Below are positions 3,419 to 56,872 of a DNA stretch of 57,928 nucleotides, piece after piece; positions within the stretch are counted from its first letter, which is position 1; each line of letters opens with the position of its first letter. Under the pieces are notes generated by a model. That model was not told the origin of the DNA. It made no database searches and saw nothing but the letters and a program-made list of their open reading frames with translations. Source of the DNA: a virus; the IMG/VR virus record IMGVR_UViG_3300009002_000002, positions 1-57,928 of that record; one strand, 5' to 3'. A program made the translations under genes and the position numbers.

Positions 3419-3610
3419 TTATTCTGATTCTACTTCTACGCTTGCTTCTGCTTCAACTGGCTCGCCAGCTTCTGCGGGAGCGCCAAACATAGAATCGTAT
3501 TTTTGTCCGATAGCCGCTGTCATTTTATCCGCCATAATACCATTAAACGAGGATTCAAATGAACCAGCATCTTTATCCATCGCATTTTTAATCAAATCAC
3601 TAACACTCAT
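3419..3610 (-). CDS. 67: Prohead core protein gp67-like
   Basis: 63 residues; starts MSVSDLIKNAMDKDAGSFE and ends in an acidic Ala/Glu/Val-rich tail. T4 gp67 (80 residues) is likewise a small acidic core peptide precursor, encoded just after portal gp20 and needed for correct head shape. Here it follows gp20 in the transcription order and precedes the gp68-like and gp21 genes, with its own late box 24 nt upstream and an AAGGAG ribosome site. Called from size, composition and place. Confidence 0.75.
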   Translation of the reverse strand: MSVSDLIKNAMDKDAGSFESSFNGIMADKMTAAIGQKYDSMFGAPAEAGEPVEAEASVEVESE

Positions 3611-13377: not shown

Positions 13378-14481
13378 TTAAGCTAAGTTCTCTACTGTTC
13401 CATAAATTTTTCGTAGTCTTATTGTATGATATTGTCCTATCTTATCATTATACAGTCTAGACTGCACAAGTATGTCAGTCTTTGTGGTTGTTTCTGGTAA
13501 TATTATATCGAAATTTTGTGAGAAATTGAGGTCGCCATTAACTGCGTAGGGTCCTGTATGATACAGATCAAGCTGATAAACTTTAGACTCGTTTACTATC
13601 TCATAGAACTGTCCAGCAGAAGTAAACCTTTCAGCACTAAAATATACTGTGTCTCCTTGATTGAAATCGAAACCAGGTGTGTCCACAAAGCCTGTATTAT
13701 ATTTAATCTCAGTTTCATCCAGATAAGAGTTATAGAAAAAAGTTTCTATGTCCATGTCATTGAAGCCGGCTGATGTAGATGCTATCTTACCAAAATAGGT
13801 AAGCTTGTCAGTGACATTACCCGCTATTCGCAGTTTTCTTGCTATTGTCGAGCCAAGTTCTGTCAAATCGACTGCTGTCGTACTGAACAACACAGTACCC
13901 ACAGCAATTGCATCAGCACCTTTAGACTTAGCAACTAATCTGTACTGTATATCAAACTCTGCATCAGAGGCAACCCCGCCGGCTGATACATACCAATCAT
14001 AATTGATATTAACTCTTTGTCTTTTTGTTGTTCCTGAATATGGTGCGGGTATACCTAAAGGATTAGAGTTAGCATAATCACTACCGAAGTGGGTGGTATA
14101 ACTACCAACATCCTCGGCAAAATTTTGTGTCTGACCACTTGTAGGATTTAAGGTACCCTGATAATCACTTCTTCGTATACTAAATCTTTTTACGAATGGA
14201 TATGTCTCGGTCTTTACACTATTAATCAAAGTTGTAAGACTTCCACCATCTTTCCACTTTTGAGAAGACCCGTCATAGTACAGATATGCACCATTTTCTG
14301 GATTCGTTATATCCGTATTTGATAGCGAATCTAATGTCAGATTAGACGGATCTACTTGAAAGTTATCTACTACTAAGTTTCCGTCTATATCCAATTTTGC
14401 GTCTAATGACTGTGCTTGACTAACCTGTGCCACAAGATTTTGATTAGTAGATACTGATCCGCTAATCTCTTCATCACTCAT
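13378..14481 (-). CDS. Structural protein, fibre/whisker-like, unknown role
   Basis: 367 residues between the neck genes and the fibre cassette. The N-terminal half contains SLDAKLDIDGNLVVDNFQVD and NPENGAYLYYDGSSQKWKDG, phrases typical of phage fibre and appendage shafts. The C-terminal half is a beta-rich domain with many aromatic residues (FSIRRSDYQGTLNP, TVYFSAERFTSAGQFYEI), suggesting a knob. No enzyme motif or membrane segment is seen. The start overlaps the stop of the preceding 136-aa gene as TAATG, so the two are coupled. A neck whisker or collar fibre is a reasonable inference from its place beside gp13, but the family is not one I can name. Confidence 0.7.
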   Translation of the reverse strand: MSDEEISGSVSTNQNLVAQVSQAQSLDAKLDIDGNLVVDNFQVDPSNLTLDSLSNTDITNPENGAYLYYDGSSQKWKDGGSLTTLINSVKTETYPFVKRFSIRRSDYQGTLNPTSGQTQNFAEDVGSYTTHFGSDYANSNPLGIPAPYSGTTKRQRVNINYDWYVSAGGVASDAEFDIQYRLVAKSKGADAIAVGTVLFSTTAVDLTELGSTIARKLRIAGNVTDKLTYFGKIASTSAGFNDMDIETFFYNSYLDETEIKYNTGFVDTPGFDFNQGDTVYFSAERFTSAGQFYEIVNESKVYQLDLYHTGPYAVNGDLNFSQNFDIILPETTTKTDILVQSRLYNDKIGQYHTIRLRKIYGTVENLA

Positions 14482-14891
14482 TACTTGGTTATCCCTGCTG
14501 TAACGGTCACTGTCCCTTGCACGACACGAGTGACAACATTCGGTGTGCTATTGTCAGCTATTTCTACATCATATAGATATCTACCTGCTTCTATATTTGC
14601 TGTTCCTACTTGTGCTGGCTGTGCTTGAACAAAACCAGCTTGACCTCTAGTGCCAGATTCTGCTGTTGCAACTTTAGCCCCACTGCTCAAAGTTAGAACA
14701 ATTTGTCCCAAGTTATCGTTATGTGTACATATAAAAGATGCACTTGCGGTTGATTGACTAGGGTTCTTTCTCATTTGTGCATGAATAAGATGATGTGTAA
14801 GGTTATATGCCTGCCCATCTGCCGCTTTTAGATCAATAGTAGCAGTAAAATCTGCACCTTGATCGACTGTTAAATTTGCTTTAATTGCCAT
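14481..14891 (-). CDS. Small beta-sandwich virion protein
   Basis: 136 residues from ATG 14891, chosen because GGAG lies about 8 nt upstream and a late box lies 27 nt upstream. A longer in-frame reading to 15137 would run back through the promoter and into the opposite-strand gene. The sequence MAIKANLTVDQGADFTATID, then LIHAQMRKNP and AGRYLYDVEI, ending VTRVVQGTVTVTAGI, matches a small phage structural family I recall from marine T4-like phages, with an upper-baseplate/BppU-like Ig fold (inference). It is likely a spacer or adaptor for an appendage. It is transcribed away from the plus-strand gene at 14965 and coupled to the 367-aa gene after it. Confidence 0.78.
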   Translation of the reverse strand: MAIKANLTVDQGADFTATIDLKAADGQAYNLTHHLIHAQMRKNPSQSTASASFICTHNDNLGQIVLTLSSGAKVATAESGTRGQAGFVQAQPAQVGTANIEAGRYLYDVEIADNSTPNVVTRVVQGTVTVTAGITK

Positions 14892-14915
14892 GTAATTTCT
14901 CCAATAGATACTACA

Positions 14916-14931
14916 GTTATTTATAAATAAC
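14916..14931. promoter_or_regulatory. Palindromic divergent late promoter
   Basis: GTTATTTATAAATAAC is a perfect 16-bp palindrome. It contains TATAAATA on the plus strand (14922-14929, 35 nt before ATG 14965) and on the minus strand (14925-14918, 27 nt before ATG 14891). The two boxes overlap by 4 bp, so one site serves both divergent genes and two polymerases could not occupy it at once. Confidence 0.85.
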
Positions 14932-14964
14932 AGAATAACCCTATAAGAACTAATTGGAAGAACT

Positions 14965-17900
14965 ATGTCAAGAACAAAGTATATAAAATTTGGTGCTAGA
15001 GCAGACAAAAACTTATCAGATTTACCTAATCCTACTCTAGCACTAGATAATATATTAGATAATATATCTGTGCAGGTAGACAGTGACGGTAATCCTTTAA
15101 GGTTCACATCTGCCGATCTTCTTCCTTTAGTAGGCATCGCTCAGGGTCCTTTAGCAGATAGAGTCGATGCAAACGGAAACTCGACAGAGTTTACCCAACT
15201 AGCAAACACTACAGTAGAGGGCACGCTAGTAGGTTCTGATAATACATCTGTAATCATTGAGCCCAGAGTAACAATTCAAGACCATATAAACAACTTTAAA
15301 GTGTCGCTAGGTGATCCGCCATGGATAAATGGCGGCATAGGACCTAGCGCAACTATAGCGTCAGTGGAAAGACTTAACGGTAATACGATAAACTATCCAG
15401 AATCTTTGATTAATGCAACTCAGTCTCGCCAAGGAAACGAATACAGGGTTCTTGCTGGCGATGCGACCATGACATTTGATAATTTGCAACTCGTATGTGA
15501 TTCCCTGTATGGCGATACCACTAGCACTACTAGAATTACTTCACCTGTAGGCAATGGCGTATTAGAAACAACAACTATAACTAATGGTTTGCCGTGTGTC
15601 ATCACATCATCTGGATCTTTTGACTTCACAACAGTAGGAGCAAGCACAGCTAATCCTCCTGTGGGAACAAGATTTTTACCAACATCGAGCGGCACTGCAA
15701 CGGGCGGATCTAAGGTAATATCGAGTAAAGCACTAGGCTCTCTTGTGCAGAATAAGATGTATACTATCACTAGAGTGGGTAGTGTGTCTGCAAACGCCTC
15801 TGAGTGGACAGCGATAGGAGTGACTGGTATACCGTATGTGGGTCAGCAGTTTATTTGTAGTAAAGCGCCCGCAGATCAGACAACAGTTGCAGATGCTTTC
15901 GCATTAGAGCATTGGTCTATAGGAGATCGTTTAACACATACTGTTGCAGAAAACTTCTCGGCGAACATTGGAGGAATACCCGTAAAAATCAATCTGAAAA
16001 ACCAGACATTGCCTTCGGGTGAGGGATCGACTACATTAGATCCAAATTCAGCAGATTTACCGGTAAGTCAATTCTACACTAAGAAAGTTGATACTGCCAA
16101 TCTATCGGACCTAATCACAAATGCAGACTTCTGGAGCGATGGTAAGTTAAAACTAACTGGTCCACTTCATCCAGACTTTAGTGATGTGACTGGTGGAGCA
16201 GTTTGGGAAGGATATCAAAGCGGATTCTTTTCCCCAAAGTTTTTCACAAATGCTTTTTTTGCGATAGAAGAAGATGTCAACGAAGATGATAATTGGACAC
16301 TCATCAAAGGCATAAATGCATTCGAATTTGAAACATTGAGAGAGGTTTCGTGGTCGACTGTGAATAATGTTACGAGACTTACTCTTCATGAGGCAAACGA
16401 CTGGAAAAGAATATGTGTAAATCATGCCTGTTCTATCAATGGAGTTGAGACTCTTGTCGCTAAAGTATATCAAGAATTTGATACTGCTCACGGTAAATAT
16501 AGGTATTACGCAGACTTAGATCAAGACACAGGATCTACTGGATATGACTATATGTCTTTTTCATATGACCGATCAGAGCATGATCTGCATACAGGCAACA
16601 CAGTAATCTTTACTCCGCCAGCAGAAGGTAAAAGAAGAAGAGTTAGATATAGTGCTTGGTGGTACACGCCAAACGATAACGACCAAGCGCAATACTTAAA
16701 TGAGAAATTGTTTGAACATGACAACATCAGTGGATCACCTTTATCGTATGCATACTTCTATCCTGATAATGGAGAAACTGAAACTTTTGGAAGATATACT
16801 TTTCCATATTTTGTTGACAATCATGCAAAAGTTACGAAACAAGAGACTAACTCAAAGCTAACTGTTGATAATACTATATCCTTGCTACTTTATAGCGCAA
16901 AACAGGCAGCGGCTGATGTGTTTAACCACTCATCTGGAGCGGCGACAATATCGATACATCACTTTAAGCACACCAACTCTACAGGAAAACTAGAAGTTGA
17001 CACAGAGGTAGGTACTGGATCTCCATTCTCGACATCATCAGTGGGCGATGTCATAACAATCTTGCCTTCGTATGTCGATACTGATGATACTACTAGAGAG
17101 TGGACAAATGCTTCAAATAAACTCTGGTCTTTTCAAATACTTGATTTGGTTAGTTCTAATAAAGCGTTCGTGTCTCAAGTCTTAGGCTCAGGAGCAGGTG
17201 TTGCGGCTACAACAACTCTGAGATTCATCTCTTCAAAAAACGAAGGATTAGTTGGAGTATACAAAGCAAAAAGACTAAGCGACACATCTATAGAAATTAG
17301 ACTCGTTGATGGAGTAGCTGGATCTTTTCAAAGGAGCGTATTGGATATAGTAGAAGGCGACTTACTATATTATGGAGAAGTTCCAAAGTCTACGGCCACG
17401 GGATCGCTTTCTGTATCTGATAAGCCATATTTGATAGAAAAGGTTGTAGAGTCTGGTGGAGTAGCTACTTTGACAGTAGCGGATCATCCATCTCTGGCCA
17501 CTGATGTTTTGGCCACGCTAAATTTTGGAGTTGCACACATATACTCAAGCAGAGGGCTGAACGATGTAACAGGCGTTTACGAGTGTGGTGGAGTATTTGG
17601 AGTAGAAGTAGCGAGCAACAACACTCTCAGCGATGGAAATTCTAACAGCGAAATAACACTAACAGCTACAAACTATAGTAGAATCGCTGTTAATGATAGA
17701 GTGTACTTTGAGTCTTCAATACCACAGGCGACTCAGCCTGGTTTAGTAGGCGAAGCTACGCTAGTAGCATCAACACCCGGATCTAATAAAATAACTCTAA
17801 AGAATGAGAGTGGAGCAACAGTCAATATTACAGCCGATGTTAATGCGGGAGCGACTATTATTATCGTTCCTCATACAAACTATTCCAGTTCAGTTACCGA

Positions 17901-18522
17901 ACTGAGAAAGAATAGAGAGTATTGTGTTATTCCTTTGAATACTGCTCCACCTTTTGGTAGCTATGCTGAAGGCTTGCAGACGACAGATAGTTTTCCAAAC
18001 TTAGAAGTCAAAGAGTTAGCGTTTAAAGAATTTTCATATGGTACGAGTAGGGATATAACATTCACCAGTGCCGCTTTATCAGGTGGTTATTTGTATAATT
18101 ATCCCGCTTCATTAAATCTTTCAACTAGTCCTACCGAGCTTCAGGTAGGTGACTTTATTAAAGCTGAAGGCACTGATACAAATGGTGTGCTTAGTCAGTT
18201 TTCTAATGGAATTATATACAGAATAGGCAGTTTAGGCATAGGCAACAATGCATTGTTGCAATATTGGAATACAAATCAGTGGTCTAATGTGAGTGGTACT
18301 GGCACTTTGGATGGTATAACATTCACACGATTGGGCTCTGCACTATCATTAGAAGATATTAAATTTGCTGAGACAACTGGTCAGTCTGCAAATAGAGGTA
18401 GTGAGACATCTAACCAAGCGCAGGAACCAGATGGTTATATTGAAATCTGTTATACTCCTTCAGGCGGTTCAGAAGAAACTTATAGAGTGCTTGCGAATAG
18501 TAGAGGCAATAAACCAGCCTAG
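14965..18522 (+). CDS. Large fibre/adhesin-like structural protein, inverted gene
   Basis: 1185 residues; the only supported gene on the plus strand. The N-terminus ADKNLSDLPNPTLALDNI is a fibre-anchor motif of the NLSDL...AxxNLG type, also seen in the two minus-strand proteins nearest its 3' end. Two tandem YxI...G...VGxxF modules lie at nt about 15577-15720 and 15741-15900, and a third at 18200-18350. The middle (residues 380-650) is rich in Trp/Tyr and acidic residues, possibly a binding domain. The C-terminus ends GGSEETYRVLANSRGNKPA. A GGAAG ribosome site and a private late box precede it. The stop overlaps the opposing gene. The role in host attachment is inferred. Confidence 0.75.
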   Translation: MSRTKYIKFGARADKNLSDLPNPTLALDNILDNISVQVDSDGNPLRFTSADLLPLVGIAQGPLADRVDANGNSTEFTQLANTTVEGTLVGSDNTSVIIEPRVTIQDHINNFKVSLGDPPWINGGIGPSATIASVERLNGNTINYPESLINATQSRQGNEYRVLAGDATMTFDNLQLVCDSLYGDTTSTTRITSPVGNGVLETTTITNGLPCVITSSGSFDFTTVGASTANPPVGTRFLPTSSGTATGGSKVISSKALGSLVQNKMYTITRVGSVSANASEWTAIGVTGIPYVGQQFICSKAPADQTTVADAFALEHWSIGDRLTHTVAENFSANIGGIPVKINLKNQTLPSGEGSTTLDPNSADLPVSQFYTKKVDTANLSDLITNADFWSDGKLKLTGPLHPDFSDVTGGAVWEGYQSGFFSPKFFTNAFFAIEEDVNEDDNWTLIKGINAFEFETLREVSWSTVNNVTRLTLHEANDWKRICVNHACSINGVETLVAKVYQEFDTAHGKYRYYADLDQDTGSTGYDYMSFSYDRSEHDLHTGNTVIFTPPAEGKRRRVRYSAWWYTPNDNDQAQYLNEKLFEHDNISGSPLSYAYFYPDNGETETFGRYTFPYFVDNHAKVTKQETNSKLTVDNTISLLLYSAKQAAADVFNHSSGAATISIHHFKHTNSTGKLEVDTEVGTGSPFSTSSVGDVITILPSYVDTDDTTREWTNASNKLWSFQILDLVSSNKAFVSQVLGSGAGVAATTTLRFISSKNEGLVGVYKAKRLSDTSIEIRLVDGVAGSFQRSVLDIVEGDLLYYGEVPKSTATGSLSVSDKPYLIEKVVESGGVATLTVADHPSLATDVLATLNFGVAHIYSSRGLNDVTGVYECGGVFGVEVASNNTLSDGNSNSEITLTATNYSRIAVNDRVYFESSIPQATQPGLVGEATLVASTPGSNKITLKNESGATVNITADVNAGATIIIVPHTNYSSSVTELRKNREYCVIPLNTAPPFGSYAEGLQTTDSFPNLEVKELAFKEFSYGTSRDITFTSAALSGGYLYNYPASLNLSTSPTELQVGDFIKAEGTDTNGVLSQFSNGIIYRIGSLGIGNNALLQYWNTNQWSNVSGTGTLDGITFTRLGSALSLEDIKFAETTGQSANRGSETSNQAQEPDGYIEICYTPSGGSEETYRVLANSRGNKPA
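18519..18522. other. Convergent stop codons sharing CTAG
   Basis: The plus-strand gene ends in TAG at 18520-18522 and the minus-strand gene in TAG at 18521-18519, both within one CTAG. No terminator hairpin separates them, so late transcripts from each side should run into the opposite gene. Confidence 0.9.
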
Positions 18523-34913: not shown

Positions 34914-36299
34914 TTAGTCTGCTAGTCTTTCCCAGATGTAAACTACAGCACTTCTATTAAGAATGTTCATGGCAGTGCCGCTACCTGTATTTGATGTTCT
35001 AGTACTGTTATTAGTGTTCTTGTTGAGATGGTCTAAACAATCTCCAGAACTTACATTATAATTTTGTCCCCCAAAGAATATACTAGTTCCTTCTGTTCTA
35101 ATGTTGGTGTCGTGCTGATGGCTAGGCATCTGAGATACGGTCTGAGTTATATGGTTTGAACCAGAAGTTGATGGAACACTTGTGGCACTAAATAGTGCTA
35201 CTTTTCTTGAGGAGTCACCACTGGTCACTGAAGAAGCCCTAGAGATTTTAATTTGGTTAGATGTTGACTCTGTAACTTCGAAGTTACCATTTCCACCAGC
35301 ACCGAAGCCTGTAAGGGAGACTCTATCTCCTACAGAAAACCCATGAGTAGATACGCTGAAATTGAGTGTGGTAATGCCTGCAGATGCTGAAGCACTTGAG
35401 ATAGCCATGCCTTCATCAAAACCAACAACTGATCTACCTTCTGCAAATCTTGCCCAATTGCCTGGTAAACCAAGACTAGTAGGAGTGCTATTCGCTGTAG
35501 TGTAATACAATGAGCCAACTGGATAAACAGCATTCAGTACTTGAGTCACAGCAGTAGCGTTTAGAGAATTTGTTATTGATGCTGTTCCTGTAACATTACC
35601 TGTTATAGTGCCTGTTACACCTAATGTGCCAGCAATTGTCGCATTGCCAGTGCCTGTAATTGTAGTAAAACCACCTGCAGCCTTTACGCTTGCGCCAATT
35701 GTTGTGCCGTCAATGTTACCACCGTTGATATCGACACTAGTGAATGCCCCTGTAGATGCCGTGTTTGCTCCAATAGCAGTGCCATCAATAGCACCTCCAT
35801 TGATGTCTACAGTGCCAAATGTTGCTGTTTGATTAGATGTTAGTGTTCCAGTCAACGAAACATTCGCAGGCAACATGGCATTACTTATTTTAAGACCACT
35901 CGATGTTGTGATTCCAGAAGCGGCAATAGTAAAAGTTCTAGTTCCGTCTCCTATCACAAAAGCAGTTTGTGAAGCTGATGTGGCAACTGACCAAGTATTC
36001 GTACCACTTTCTTTAAACTGTAGTTTAGCTTCACCCGTTGAGTTAACAGTTAATGTATCTGTGTTTTCTATCTCGCCAGCAAAAGTAACTTTTCCACCAG
36101 ACACTGGAGAAATGTTGTTTGTAGTTAAAACATTACCAGTATTTACTAGTGAAAAGTTTCCAGTAAGCGACACATTTCCAGTATTATTTGCATCAATCGT
36201 TACAGCAGTGTCTGCAAAGCTAATAAGAGCGTTAGTTTTAGCTACCCACTCCGAAAATGTATTAGAATTTGAAATTGTAGGTGTTAAGTTTATACTCAT
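34914..36299 (-). CDS. Tail fibre with repeat shaft and split collar domain
   Basis: 461 residues, low-complexity Thr/Gly/Ser/Asn shaft. Residues about 163-212 contain two copies of VDINGGxIDGTxIG (FGTVDINGGAIDGTAIGA and TSVDINGGNIDGTTIGA). The C-terminus is a phage collar-type domain: YPVGSLYYTTANSTPTSLGL, NWARFAEGRSVVGFD, then MPSHQHD and the terminal AVVYIWERLA. The domain is interrupted by an HGFSVGDRVSLTGF module (residues about 300-345). This architecture is usual for distal fibres or short-tail-fibre tips; receptor binding is inferred. The start overlaps the 63-aa gene by ATGA. Confidence 0.82.
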   Translation of the reverse strand: MSINLTPTISNSNTFSEWVAKTNALISFADTAVTIDANNTGNVSLTGNFSLVNTGNVLTTNNISPVSGGKVTFAGEIENTDTLTVNSTGEAKLQFKESGTNTWSVATSASQTAFVIGDGTRTFTIAASGITTSSGLKISNAMLPANVSLTGTLTSNQTATFGTVDINGGAIDGTAIGANTASTGAFTSVDINGGNIDGTTIGASVKAAGGFTTITGTGNATIAGTLGVTGTITGNVTGTASITNSLNATAVTQVLNAVYPVGSLYYTTANSTPTSLGLPGNWARFAEGRSVVGFDEGMAISSASASAGITTLNFSVSTHGFSVGDRVSLTGFGAGGNGNFEVTESTSNQIKISRASSVTSGDSSRKVALFSATSVPSTSGSNHITQTVSQMPSHQHDTNIRTEGTSIFFGGQNYNVSSGDCLDHLNKNTNNSTRTSNTGSGTAMNILNRSAVVYIWERLAD

Positions 36300-36487
36300 G
36301 TTGTTATCTCTTTAACAGTTTTTTCTAAAAGCGTCATTGCCGACTCTAGTTTACAGAGTCTCTGCTCTAATCCTCTGATGTATTTATCTTGTTCTCTTTT
36401 AGCTATCGCTTGATGATAAGCCGCTCTATCGGTGCTCACAACACCCGATCCACTATTTGACCTAGATAAAGCTTCTGATTTGATCAT
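36296..36487 (-). CDS. Small coiled-coil protein beside fibre genes
   Basis: 63 residues, MIKSEALSRSNSGSGVV start and a C-terminal heptad region LEQRLCKLESAMTLLEKTV. Both ends overlap neighbours as ATGA (36487-36484 with the DUF4815 gene, 36299-36296 with the fibre gene), which strongly supports translation by coupling. I recall short proteins with this start in other marine T4-like phages at the same place. It may be a trimerising or chaperone-like helper for fibre assembly; that role is inference. Confidence 0.82.
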   Translation of the reverse strand: MIKSEALSRSNSGSGVVSTDRAAYHQAIAKREQDKYIRGLEQRLCKLESAMTLLEKTVKEITT

Positions 36488-49710: not shown

Positions 49711-51471
49711 TTATGTCTCTAGTGTTTTAGCAGTTACAAATACATCTTCGCCACGAATCACAAGTATACGATCTTTCGGTGGCTTAATATCTTTATCTAC
49801 TGTGTTAGCAGTAAACTTAATTGCTTTGTTCTGGAATGAACTAATTGTAAGATTTGACAACTTAACAGCACCTGTGCTATAATTGATAGTACCTACTGAA
49901 GACTTAAACACTGACTCACTATCTACTTCAGCAGTCACTAGCATGATGTTACCATTACCATCGTCTTGTGCTGATACTAATGTACCATCAACAGTAAACT
50001 TAGTAGACTCTACAGCAGGCTTAAATGTATTAAAGCCAAGTGAAGCATCAAATGGATATGGCTGTACTAATGCAGTCTCAAACGAGAACGATGGACTACT
50101 CGAAAAGTTCAAAGCAGGAACATATTCAATGATAGGCTTACTTACGATATCAGTTGATATGATCGACACATCAAGATCATCTAGATAAGCCGCTAGGCGT
50201 GACTGTCGTAATGTCTTATTAAAGTCATTTAGATTGTTACTGTTGTAGTTAATGATACCAGCATTCACTTCGCTCTGAATCTGTGCCGCACTCTTATTTG
50301 TTAAGTTAGTATCATAAACAACCTTAACTACTGTATCGACATACAAGAACTTCGCAACAACAAACACAGGCTCAATCGTAAGCGGAGTCTTATCTCGTAG
50401 ATAGCCTTTAAAGTTTGCAATCTCGTAATCAGCCGCACCTTCACCACCTGTTACATCAACTGAGATAATCACCTTTCCGAATTGAGGGGGTGAAACTTCA
50501 TCACCACCATACACACTAATCGCTTGAATGTTTGGAAATCTAGCACGAAGCAGAGTCTCATAGTCTCGCTTAGTAACTGCTCTTTCTTGAACCTGCAAAG
50601 CCTTTGGAGCAAAAGTTCTAATCGACTCAATATCTTCCGCCAGAGAGCCGCCATTTGTAGTATTCGTGAGAGTCACTGTGATCGATGTCGAGCCGCCAAA
50701 GTTGCCAAGAGTCAAAGAGCCTACACCATTCGCAAGAGGACCTGCAGTTACTCTATAGGTCGCTACAATGGAATCAGTAACAGTAGGTTGTACACCAAAC
50801 TTATTCTCACCAAACTGAATAGAATACTTACCATCATTCTCGGGTTGTAGATAGAATACTTTATCTGTAGCACCCACACCAAAGATATCGCTTCTATAAG
50901 TGTATGTCTCACCATTTACTTTTAACACAAGACTTCTTGTATCAATGGTAGCATTTGATAGTAGTGTATCAGTACTAGAGAGAGTCTCTTTAATCATACG
51001 ACCTTCGAATACATCAACACTGTTTACTTCATATACAGTATCATTAGTTGCAGTACGAGATGCTGTGTATGCTTTGTCAGTAATGAAGTTATATGTCTTA
51101 TTACCACAGCGACCAATAAAGGCAGTGTGCATAGGTATAGTAAAGTAGTTACTGTTTAGATTAGGTGCTATGACACGAAGAGATACTTTAGTACTAGAAC
51201 TTCGTGAAGATGTTGGCAGATAGTTAAGTTCCTTGGCATGAGAGATCACACTATTACGCTGACTAGCACTATCAAGAAACATCTCTGAGATGGCCATGTT
51301 ATAGTAATAGTTATTATAGTATGAGTTATACGATAGAACATCTAACAATACATTCATGTTAGATCCTTCGTAGTCATAGTCTTTAAACTTATCTTGATTC
51401 TTTAGAAAGGTCTTGAGTGCTTCCTTAGTTTCATTAAAGTCTAGATTTGTAATTGGTGACAAGTCTGCCAT
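49711..51471 (-). CDS. 6: Baseplate wedge protein gp6
   Basis: Core wedge subunit, J-like family, forming the baseplate ring that drives sheath contraction. It has 586 residues (660 in T4). The N-terminus LDFNETKEALKTFLKNQDKF with YEGSNMNVLLDVLSYNSYYN, then MFLDSASQRNSVISHAKELN, is diagnostic. The middle has AVTKRDYETLLRARFPNIQA and the typical GVQPTVTDSIVATYR. The gene starts 1 nt after gp25, as wedge genes do in T4 (25-6). A GATAAATA late-type box lies 49 nt upstream inside gp25. Confidence 0.96.
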   Translation of the reverse strand: MADLSPITNLDFNETKEALKTFLKNQDKFKDYDYEGSNMNVLLDVLSYNSYYNNYYYNMAISEMFLDSASQRNSVISHAKELNYLPTSSRSSSTKVSLRVIAPNLNSNYFTIPMHTAFIGRCGNKTYNFITDKAYTASRTATNDTVYEVNSVDVFEGRMIKETLSSTDTLLSNATIDTRSLVLKVNGETYTYRSDIFGVGATDKVFYLQPENDGKYSIQFGENKFGVQPTVTDSIVATYRVTAGPLANGVGSLTLGNFGGSTSITVTLTNTTNGGSLAEDIESIRTFAPKALQVQERAVTKRDYETLLRARFPNIQAISVYGGDEVSPPQFGKVIISVDVTGGEGAADYEIANFKGYLRDKTPLTIEPVFVVAKFLYVDTVVKVVYDTNLTNKSAAQIQSEVNAGIINYNSNNLNDFNKTLRQSRLAAYLDDLDVSIISTDIVSKPIIEYVPALNFSSSPSFSFETALVQPYPFDASLGFNTFKPAVESTKFTVDGTLVSAQDDGNGNIMLVTAEVDSESVFKSSVGTINYSTGAVKLSNLTISSFQNKAIKFTANTVDKDIKPPKDRILVIRGEDVFVTAKTLET

Positions 51472-53804: not shown

Positions 53805-53821
53805 TTATTTCACTCTTTTTG

Positions 53822-53849
53822 TTGACAAATAGGCCAATTGTGTTATACT
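53822..53849 (+). promoter_or_regulatory. Near-consensus sigma70-type promoter on the plus strand
   Basis: TTGACA (53822-53827), 16-nt spacer, then TATACT (53844-53849) preceded by TG at the extended -10 position. It points into the antisense of gp5 and no plus-strand gene follows. Either a real antisense/early promoter or chance. Confidence 0.4.
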
Positions 53850-53886
53850 AGTAGTTGCAAGTAAAGGATTTATTCCACTCCCGTTG

Positions 53887-53894
53887 TATTTATT
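53887..53894 (-). promoter_or_regulatory. Possible late promoter for the M15-like gene
   Basis: AATAAATA on the minus strand, about 83 nt before ATG 53804, overlapping the gp5 stop. Confidence 0.45.
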
Positions 53895-55467
53895 ACTCAT
53901 CATCTGATCTCATAAAGCCACTAAGAGCCTGCCACCATCTCTTTGTCTTCGCAGGAAGTGGAGAAGTGGCAACATTAGTAATCTCTTGAGGCTTGACAAC
54001 CTTCGCTATCTCTGTTACACTAATATCAGGTATCGTCTGAGTACCTTTTTGCACTAACTGTGGTGCTAACGAAGCAGTAATTGCACCAGCCGATGCCGTT
54101 CCTGTTGCGGCTGCTGTACCATTACCAATCAGAACAGAAGCGGCTGGTATTACTGAGTCAAGTGATACTGCGGCTGTTGCACCTAATCCTAATGTACCAA
54201 TAGAGTATAGATTCATTGTAGCACCAGATGAGATACCGACAGCACCCGTACCGTTAATACCAAGCGATCCTAGCGTGTTTAGATTCATCGTAGCTATGGA
54301 GTCTATTCGTAGTGAGGTTTTACTGTGGATGTCAATACCATTATGGCCAACATCAGGTATTGGTAGTAGTTGAGAACTTACTGCTGGCAGACCTGTTGTA
54401 TGTATCTTCGTATATGAAATACTGTTGAGATTCATCTTATACGAGTCTACATGGAAGTCACCCCCATTTCCAGCTACATTACCTGGCATTAGACACTTGA
54501 AGTACATACCACCTAGAGTTGTTAACGCTTTCAGATTAGTATTCGCAACCATATTAATGTCATCTGCTGTAGCAAAGAGTCCAATACCAGCACCAGATAC
54601 ATTCACTTTCACACCTGCATCAAGGTTTATATTTCGTGCGGCACGAACATTAAAGTCTGTACACTCTATATCTAATCGGCCATTCACACTGATCTTACCA
54701 GACTTGCCTACTTTCAGAGTATAGTCTTCGTCTATTGTACTATGAGAAGAACCTCTAACATAGCTTGACTCTACACCCTGAGTTGTGTTATACTTGTCAG
54801 CAAATGACTTAACAAAGATAGTACCATTCGCATCAATCTGGAATACGGAGCCAGAGGAGTGGGAGATAAGAAAATAATCAGTTGCTTCACCATCTTCACC
54901 AGATCCTAGTACAATAAAGTTATCTCCATCAGAAGACTTTATCACTCTATTCTTATAGTTATTACCAGGCATCATGATAGGTGGCTCATCAAACGAATCA
55001 CCATCTGCTTGAGGAATATTAGTGTTAGCAAAGACTCGCTGTGCTAATGTTTGTCCTTGGCTAGCTCCTTCACCACCTTGATATCGATGTAGATCAGGCT
55101 TACCAAATTGATTCACGACTTCAGGTGGTAGATAGCCATCTTCTCCTGGCTCACCACTACCCGCAGGCATTTGTAGATGTTGCCCCGGCAATCTACCCAT
55201 AATCATAGGCTGTTGCGCTTCTGCACCATCTATAAAGAAGCCAAATACCCAGTCACCCACAGAAGGAATAACAGGCGATACACCATATGATCCATCTAAT
55301 ACTGAAGCCCATGGCAGGTGGTCAGTAGGAACACTATCAGTATCGCTCTCACTATTTCGAGGAGGATGAATACCAAACGCTCTTACTTTCACTCTACCAT
55401 TGTTCGTAAGGTCATTGTTTGCTTCAACAACTCCTACAAAATGGAGCATATTACTAAATCCACTCAT
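53893..55467 (-). CDS. 5: Baseplate hub/spike protein gp5 without lysozyme domain
   Basis: 524 residues. The N-terminal OB-fold domain (residues about 8-100) reads FVGVVEANNDLTNNGRVKVR, LPWASVLDGSYG, GDWVFGFFIDGAEAQQPMIM and GRLPGQ, typical of gp5/VgrG. A region of short strands from about 195 to 400 (SSGSVFQIDANGTIFVKS, KVGKSGKISVNGRLDIECTD, ARNINLDAGVKVNVSG) is the needle beta-helix. T4 gp5 carries a lysozyme between these; here the linker (100-190) has no such domain. The start overlaps a 26-codon frame by TAATG. It forms the membrane-piercing spike with the gp27-like hub. Confidence 0.93.
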   Translation of the reverse strand: MSGFSNMLHFVGVVEANNDLTNNGRVKVRAFGIHPPRNSESDTDSVPTDHLPWASVLDGSYGVSPVIPSVGDWVFGFFIDGAEAQQPMIMGRLPGQHLQMPAGSGEPGEDGYLPPEVVNQFGKPDLHRYQGGEGASQGQTLAQRVFANTNIPQADGDSFDEPPIMMPGNNYKNRVIKSSDGDNFIVLGSGEDGEATDYFLISHSSGSVFQIDANGTIFVKSFADKYNTTQGVESSYVRGSSHSTIDEDYTLKVGKSGKISVNGRLDIECTDFNVRAARNINLDAGVKVNVSGAGIGLFATADDINMVANTNLKALTTLGGMYFKCLMPGNVAGNGGDFHVDSYKMNLNSISYTKIHTTGLPAVSSQLLPIPDVGHNGIDIHSKTSLRIDSIATMNLNTLGSLGINGTGAVGISSGATMNLYSIGTLGLGATAAVSLDSVIPAASVLIGNGTAAATGTASAGAITASLAPQLVQKGTQTIPDISVTEIAKVVKPQEITNVATSPLPAKTKRWWQALSGFMRSDDE

Positions 55468-55547
55468 TAATCTTTATCCTCTAGTTTCAAATAGATCGTA
55501 TAACTTATTGATATGATTAACAAAATTCCTATTAGATCAGGGCTCAT
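55467..55547 (-). CDS. Hidden 26-residue single-span membrane peptide
   Basis: This frame exactly fills the gap between the two hub genes. Its ATG overlaps the gp27-like stop as ATGA (55547-55544), and its TAA overlaps the gp5 start as TAATG (55469-55465). The peptide opens MSPD, has one hydrophobic run LIGILLIISISYTIYL (residues 5-20) and a charged tail KLEDKD, so it should span a membrane once. AAAGGGTGG upstream could serve as ribosome site. The same ATGA style joins the 63-aa gene to its neighbours. Function unknown; a small membrane helper of lysis, injection or assembly is possible. An alternative is that it only carries ribosomes to gp5. Confidence 0.6.
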   Translation of the reverse strand: MSPDLIGILLIISISYTIYLKLEDKD

Positions 55548-56872
55548 GATAAGCCACCCTTTGTAATCAATACAGATTGCTTATACTCATCACCAGTAAA
55601 CCTATGGTCAATGTTCATCACAAGATACTTACCACTTCTCTGAGTATCAGTCTCTCTAGTACCCGCTACAGTATTACTAAACTTATATAGGTCAAGGTTA
55701 ATCACCATGCCAGGGTATAATGCAATACGGCCATTGATCTCTATAGTAAAGGCATTCAGATTCATATGATAGTCCACAGCAGGCTTCGTTGTATAGTTCT
55801 CGTAGAAGTGCTGATAAGGCTTATCCAGATCACCTTTATTCTGGCCTATCTGCGGGAAGTCAGTAATCAGTGTCGTAGAAGGTGCCAATGCAGAAGGCAT
55901 ATAGGAATCTATGAACTCTTGAGAGTGTGTTAGCTTTAGGTCCTCTGGTGCCTTGTAATCTTTGTACTCGCTTGTGTAATCATACTGGCGTGAGATACGG
56001 GTCCTGTTCAGTATATCAAGTTCGGTAACATTACGCCTATAGGCACCACCCTTCATTTCAGCGAATGAGTCTGCCTTCTTGCCATATCGGACATCGTTTA
56101 TGCTCTGTTGCGCTTTCAGCTGGCCTGTGCCTGTGTTGTCATCTAACACACGGTAATTAAAAAATAAGCGATTCCTTTCTTCATTAGATATCCCCTCAAA
56201 ACCGCTGTATTTATCGGTCAGGTACTCGCTCGTACAGAAATAATACTTCTCTCTTGTCTCAAAGAATCTATATAACGAACTCTTATTACTACCACTATAT
56301 GCTCTTCTAGATAAAAATTGCATTGCGGCATCTGGCCTTAGATTAGGTATGACTAAAGTTTGTTCTCCATCTGTTTCTTCTATCTCTATGGCTTTCTTAC
56401 TATCAGAATAATACTCATTAAAGATTGTATTGACCATATCACTGATCTTTTGTTTACCAAATGATCTTTTAATCTCCTTTCTATCAGAGGATAGCTTATC
56501 TACAGTAGTAAAGTCTAGTGTATATTTCATCATTCTATCGTTGACACTGTTCTCTGGTCCTATGTTATCTACTCCATATATGATAAAGTCATAGGTTTTA
56601 GTATCTCCGTAGAAGTCTGACCATGTAATTTGTAATGATTCTTCGCCTCGAATGGGAACATCTTCTAATAGATTGTTGCTTTCATTAACTGTTAGCCTGC
56701 CTGAGATATAGGGACTGTCAATACTCTCTTGAAATGTCCAATTTACCACTACCTTTGTGATGTCTATATAGTCCGCCTGATTCTTTTGACTGGCACTCTC
56801 GACACCTGCAAATAAAGGTCGTACCTTTACTGATACGAGTTTGTGGAATCCCGCTTGGGCTTGTTTAGTCAT
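55544..56872 (-). CDS. 27: Baseplate hub protein gp27-like
   Basis: 442 residues (391 in T4). It forms the trimeric tube-like hub on which gp5 sits, related to gpD/VgrG N-terminal domains. Visible features are TKVVVNWTFQESIDSPYISG and RLTVNESNNLLEDVPIRGEE at the start, KQKISDMVNTIFNEYYSDSK, LIPxxRPxAAMQFLSRRAYS-like NLRPDAAMQFLSRRAYS, and the end SGKYLVMNIDHRFTGDEYKQ, a classic gp27 finish. The start overlaps gp53 by 8 nt. It is followed by the tiny membrane frame and gp5, making a hub operon. Confidence 0.88.
   Translation of the reverse strand: MTKQAQAGFHKLVSVKVRPLFAGVESASQKNQADYIDITKVVVNWTFQESIDSPYISGRLTVNESNNLLEDVPIRGEESLQITWSDFYGDTKTYDFIIYGVDNIGPENSVNDRMMKYTLDFTTVDKLSSDRKEIKRSFGKQKISDMVNTIFNEYYSDSKKAIEIEETDGEQTLVIPNLRPDAAMQFLSRRAYSGSNKSSLYRFFETREKYYFCTSEYLTDKYSGFEGISNEERNRLFFNYRVLDDNTGTGQLKAQQSINDVRYGKKADSFAEMKGGAYRRNVTELDILNRTRISRQYDYTSEYKDYKAPEDLKLTHSQEFIDSYMPSALAPSTTLITDFPQIGQNKGDLDKPYQHFYENYTTKPAVDYHMNLNAFTIEINGRIALYPGMVINLDLYKFSNTVAGTRETDTQRSGKYLVMNIDHRFTGDEYKQSVLITKGGLS

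Follow-up and report, generated by a model that had tools for sequence, protein, structure and literature searches.

A 26-codon gene for a putative single-span membrane peptide, traded as a cassette between the gp27-like and gp5 genes of T4-like phages

Within a 57,928-base contig fragment of a marine T4-like virus (hereafter the window), a frame of only 26 codons lies between a gp27-like and a gp5 baseplate hub gene and, on the evidence of codon substitutions across its relatives, is a genuine, unannotated gene under protein-level selection. The product is probably an accessory micropeptide, translationally coupled and spanning the membrane once; its gene is carried as an exchangeable micro-cassette, and we infer a cellular role for the peptide. 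A gene of this size falls below standard gene-calling limits, and this one is clearly protein-selected amid a virion operon of a well-studied kind. The junction has the following features:

55544..56872, minus strand: gp27-like baseplate hub protein, the upstream neighbour, 442 aa (phrog_350 and fold)
55544..55564, minus strand: 3′ end of the gp27-like gene, ACAAAGGGTGGCTTATCATGA, with a Shine-Dalgarno-like AAAGGG and the overlapping ATG of the micropeptide (sequence)
55467..55547, minus strand: micropeptide gene (family A), 26 codons, with a single hydrophobic span (open frame with ATGA and TAATG overlaps, codon selection)
55488..55535, minus strand: hydrophobic span LIGILLIISISYTIYL, 16 residues, L5-L20 (Kyte-Doolittle mean)
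55475..55482, minus strand: AGAGGATA, Shine-Dalgarno-like site of gp5 within the codons of the charged tail (sequence)
53893..55467, minus strand: gp5-like baseplate hub protein with an OB domain, the downstream neighbour, 524 aa (phrog_430, Pfam)

Read on the minus strand, positions 55547..55467 run from ATG to TAA and encode MSPDLIGILLIISISYTIYLKLEDKD. The start is shared, through the ATGA at 55547-55544, with the stop of the gp27-like gene, and the stop, through the TAATG at 55469-55465, with the start of the gp5-like gene; a preliminary description of this DNA had given the arrangement correctly to the base, along with the hydrophobic run and the charged C-terminal tail, KLEDKD. The tail codons double as the Shine-Dalgarno of gp5 (AGAGGA/AAGGA/GGGGA, 6-11 nt before the gp5 ATG), and in other alleles the equivalent site is AAGGA, GGGGA or GGAG. 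The exact fit of the frame to the gap is by itself weak evidence for a gene, since a Markov model of the same composition, applied to the single sequence, yields a gap-filling open frame by chance in 15% of cases; a gap-filling frame that is equally hydrophobic arises under this single-sequence model in 0.4%. Despite the 15% figure, a chance open frame is ruled out by the codon statistics across relatives.

The hub identity of both neighbours, as originally proposed, is confirmed, that of the upstream gene by fold and that of the downstream gene by Pfam. The gp27-like protein matches phrog_350 ('tail protein', E 6e-57) and has no sequence match in Pfam or PDB. Its structure, predicted from 28 sequences (pLDDT 84, pTM 0.85; an earlier model from 13 sequences, with a pLDDT of 47, was too poor for use), matched T4 gp27 in Foldseek searches (2z6b_D, E 1.5e-16; 1k28_D; 9mkb_iC, TM 0.62) as well as other gp27/VgrG-type hub proteins. 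A profile of gp27 gave zero matches in bacterial and archaeal genomes. The gp5-like protein matches phrog_430 (E 5.6e-32) and Pfam Gp5_OB (E 1.1e-6).

Junctions between gp27 and gp5 were gathered from IMG/VR by gp27 and gp5 searches, and in the window's clade the junction is found in one of five states. The first, family A, is a peptide of 24-29 residues akin to that of the window and occurs in 42 other IMG/VR contigs; the slot then has 30 distinct DNA alleles, window included, all of which keep the start overlap and the open frame, and the indels among them are always multiples of three. The second state is a divergent hydrophobic peptide (L015/L016), and the third, family B, is an unrelated insert seen in 15 contigs (9 distinct sequences). 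The fourth is a remnant of 13 codons (L014/L045), in which an in-frame deletion relative to L017 took out the span, and the fifth is the empty state, without an insert (L010 and L099). These states switch several times on the tree. In relatives that carry no insert, the end of gp27 lies directly before gp5. In the sister groups (L100-L122, L205-L210, L218-L219, L224-L234) no peptide lies between the two genes, which overlap or come close to abutting. The nearest isolate, Sinorhizobium phage phiN3, likewise has no insert, and its two genes overlap by 8 nt. The most fitting interpretation is therefore that the peptide gene was inserted into a junction at which gp27 and gp5 had overlapped. All of the loci matched in a peptide-profile search of viral contigs (22/22) were in the gp27/gp5 slot, and no homologue of the micropeptide was found in isolate phages, Pfam, PHROGs or PDB. 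Judged from these searches, it is a new family of short, putatively membrane-spanning phage peptides, found only at the gp27/gp5 junction.

Selection on the peptide was assessed along a minimum spanning tree of the family A cores, with a null in which the same substitutions were placed at random. Among 26 distinct cores, the proposed frame makes 72 of 176 substitutions synonymous, where 44.5±5.0 are expected, and among 28 distinct cores the number was 78 against 47.0±5.6, a value as high being reached in 0/3000 shuffles; these synonymous counts are modest because the peptide is short. Of the other five frames, rc frame 1 was marginal (P=0.04) and the remaining four gave P>0.4. Replacements keep hydropathy (mean |dKD| 1.77 against 2.78±0.18 expected, z about -6, 28 cores), and four residues, L10, S13, Y16 and Y19, are invariant in family A. 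The best 15-residue Kyte-Doolittle mean lies between 1.93 and 2.33 in 30/30 family A alleles; the medians in the other two frames are 0.0 and 0.26, and the divergent L015 form reaches 1.42. Between the window and L042, all 26 residues are identical and every DNA difference is synonymous, and the gp27 proteins of the two are 66% identical. Selection evidently acts at the protein level for a hydrophobic peptide. The conserved run is long enough for a membrane, and its hydropathy suggests insertion as a single-span membrane protein.

The earlier proposals of an undetected gene and of a one-span product are thus borne out, the first by a synonymous excess specific to the proposed frame and the second by a hydrophobic span that all full-length family A alleles retain. 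It had also been suggested that the gp27/gp5 gaps of relatives be searched for a conserved short hydrophobic frame with a synonymous bias; such a frame was found, kept open through many synonymous changes rather than broken within conserved DNA.

One alternative is that the peptide is inert and that the insert is a translational spacer, with nothing mattering beyond its coupled open frame and the ribosome-binding site of gp5. The retention of the start overlap and open frame throughout the alleles would fit such a spacer, as would the encoding of the gp5 Shine-Dalgarno by the tail codons and the fact that the family B inserts are likewise open (9/9) despite an absence of coding selection. A spacer would, however, need no conserved hydrophobic span, and the signal of selection persists when the Shine-Dalgarno is left out: over nucleotides 1-51 of the core, 67 substitutions are synonymous against 38.4±4.9 expected, and upstream of the gp5 ribosome-binding site the mean |dKD| is 1.71 against 2.86±0.19. 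The spacer is accordingly considered improbable.

It is less plausible still that the slot holds a non-coding DNA or RNA element (a promoter, a terminator or a structured RNA) that is open by accident. Antisense sigma70-like promoters do occupy the slot in other relatives, and the slot DNA is highly similar between some distant phages, but the window's own slot (55467-55547) contains no sigma70-like promoter at up to 2 mismatches. Moreover, family A substitutions favour codon positions 3 and 1 (85 and 67, versus 24 at position 2), and there is just one frame in which they are synonymous. RNA folding in four family A alleles was no better than in shuffles (z -0.11 to +1.1), leaving a structured RNA unsupported.

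Family B (...TSIIT....LSTNILKEFDS) serves as a useful internal control. Its inserts show no coding signal (16 synonymous substitutions versus 15.7 expected) and conserve, on the other strand, a TTGACA-16-TATAAT with a variable spacer; to judge from this pattern, family B is a sigma70-type promoter cassette that happens to be open. The idea that all slot inserts are one gene was ruled out on these grounds. An antisense promoter is also seen in the window at the far end of gp5:

53822-53849, plus strand: antisense sigma70-like promoter, TTGACA-16-TATACT, at the junction of gp5 and the following gene (53805-53892) (sequence)

The open frame 53903..53805 at this place is a small-gene look-alike and was rejected as a gene, being a promoter cassette. 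Many relatives in the clade have one or two copies of the antisense promoter at the gp5/following-gene junction, pointing back into the late genes. In four longer relatives (L236, L237, L238, L239) the start of the late block lies upstream of the gp27/gp5 junction, by a few kb, and the genes beyond it are on the opposite strand, so that the antisense promoters point toward that block. An exact TTGACA-18-TATAAT is present at 49854-49883 (plus strand), antisense in the 3′ part of the gp6-like gene, with a chance expectation of none in the window. In L020 and L023, a piece of ~50 nt (AGCCAGGTCGACCAGGTTRTAACCCGGTGA...) adjoins the promoter cassette at both junctions of the same phage, and in L022 tandem GATCCAGG repeats occur at the second junction. 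The T4 late promoter motif TATAAATA occurs in the window ten times on the coding (minus) strand and twice on the other strand, and is absent from the slot (55467-55547).

Comparison of the window with its close relatives indicates that the gp27/gp5 slot is a cassette site at which alleles are exchanged independently of their flanks. Over 6.4 kb, the window matches L001 at 96% identity (98% in gp27); the two are about 99% identical on both flanks of the junction and about 70% identical inside the slot, and the edges of this divergence fall at the ATGA of gp27 and at the ribosome-binding site/ATG of gp5. The sisters L009 and L042 differ in their inserts, one having family B and the other family A. 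Conversely, the window and L036 are 100% identical in the peptide core and 57% identical at their gp27 C-termini. Across 28 contigs, peptide similarity correlated with that of gp27 or gp5 at r 0.19 each, against r 0.75 for gp27 versus gp5, and in a control for length 0/134 windows of 22 columns in gp27 were as weakly correlated as the peptide, although a weak correlation with gp5 (r 0.21) is likewise seen for the final 22 residues of gp27, and 8% of variable gp5 windows reach values as low as that of the peptide. Because this statistic is imperfect with respect to the gp5 windows and the gp27 end, the L001 case is the cleanest proof of exchange.

These patterns bear on the suggestion, made in the preliminary description, that a peptide produced together with the membrane-piercing hub is a T4-type virion or lysis component. 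As a virion component it would sit in or on the gp27-gp5 baseplate hub and enter the host membrane at DNA injection. The gene does lie between both hub genes and overlaps each, its neighbours are confirmed hub proteins, and the peptide is hydrophobic and conserved. However, it is not present wherever the hub genes are, being absent from the sister groups and phiN3 and lost within the clade, and in close relatives it is missing, truncated or replaced; the searches that found no homologue in isolate phages or the family and structure libraries also count against a virion part. Its alleles, furthermore, are unmatched to those of gp27 and gp5, and a protein in close contact with the hub would not be expected to move so freely. 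The suggestion of a virion component was left unsupported, and a place in the virion is unlikely.

An accessory membrane role is most likely, as suggested by the dispensability and exchange of the gene: a peptide whose losses, replacements and swaps do not track gp27 and gp5 is better seen as an accessory membrane factor than as a fixed part of the virion. The micropeptide gene would have inserted at the gp27/gp5 junction, where in sister lineages the two genes overlap directly. Ribosomes ending gp27 would re-initiate at the overlapping ATG by means of the AAAGGG in the last codons of gp27, and the micropeptide, given its composition, would enter the host inner membrane late in infection. Its own last codons, in which the signal is seen directly, would supply the Shine-Dalgarno for gp5; with this site inside it, the insert would be self-contained and gp5 translation left intact. 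The cassette of ~75 bp, for which exchange itself is shown, may be swapped by recombination in the conserved ends of the flanking genes. As an accessory membrane factor, the micropeptide might act, for example, in superinfection or lysis timing, and exclusion of competitors or lysis timing may be taken as the first candidate roles. The more specific proposal that it is an exclusion determinant, its alleles being swapped because a different membrane peptide protects the infected cell from relatives or evades exclusion by them, is doubtful; if true, the gene would be unusually small for one that sits in a structural operon and trades alleles in this way.

Both the short phage gene and the exchangeable cassette are kinds already known, and the interesting parts here are the size, the place in the hub operon and the trading between near-identical phages. 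Short phage proteins missed by gene callers have been described (Fremin, Bhatt and Kyrpides 2022, cited in PMC11323111). Like the proteins of that set, as they are presented in the citing paper, the micropeptide is very short, unannotated and recognisable by conservation and codon-level selection; unlike them, as presented there, it is part of a structural hub operon, shares bases with the gene on each side and is traded as a cassette. A second parallel is with the PeSLs, mobile regulatory cassettes of T4-type phages (Arbiol et al. 2010; Comeau et al. 2014; cited in PMC4503421), which are outlined in the latter source as short intergenic units swapped among T4-like phages and carrying sigma70-like early promoters (PMC4503421). 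Like a PeSL so defined, the window's insert passes between related phages without its flanks, and the family B inserts found at this slot in other phages are PeSL-like. Unlike a PeSL, the window's insert has neither a promoter nor a stem-loop terminator (its folding equals that of shuffles), and it encodes a selected peptide.

The same junction also takes accessory genes in other phages: CP12 and CpeT in Synechococcus phage ACG-2014b, a 111-aa protein in Pelagibacter phage Mosig and a 75-aa protein in Caulobacter phage Cr30. These cargo genes are longer than the micropeptide gene and belong to other families, and inspection of the two cargo proteins that were translated revealed no hydrophobic span. 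Small single-span membrane proteins made by phages include the pinholins and exclusion peptides. The micropeptide is like them in being short and phage-made with one hydrophobic span, and unlike them in being shorter than the best-known examples and in having no match in the family libraries. Such micro-genes, as this case shows, are traded in the manner of cassettes, at a place that holds promoters or nothing in relatives. If the peptide is membrane-active, exclusion or lysis factors of marine T4-like phages that have so far been overlooked might be sought at the gp27/gp5 junction.

Other frames in the window merit brief mention. The only large plus-strand frame, 14965-18522 (1185 aa), has no Pfam match and overlaps the start of the minus-strand gene 14481..15137. 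Two frames of 63 codons, both on the minus strand, lie in gaps between large genes, one at 3419-3610 and the other at 36296-36487; the latter, which shares a few bases with the gene on either side, is probably a genuine short gene.
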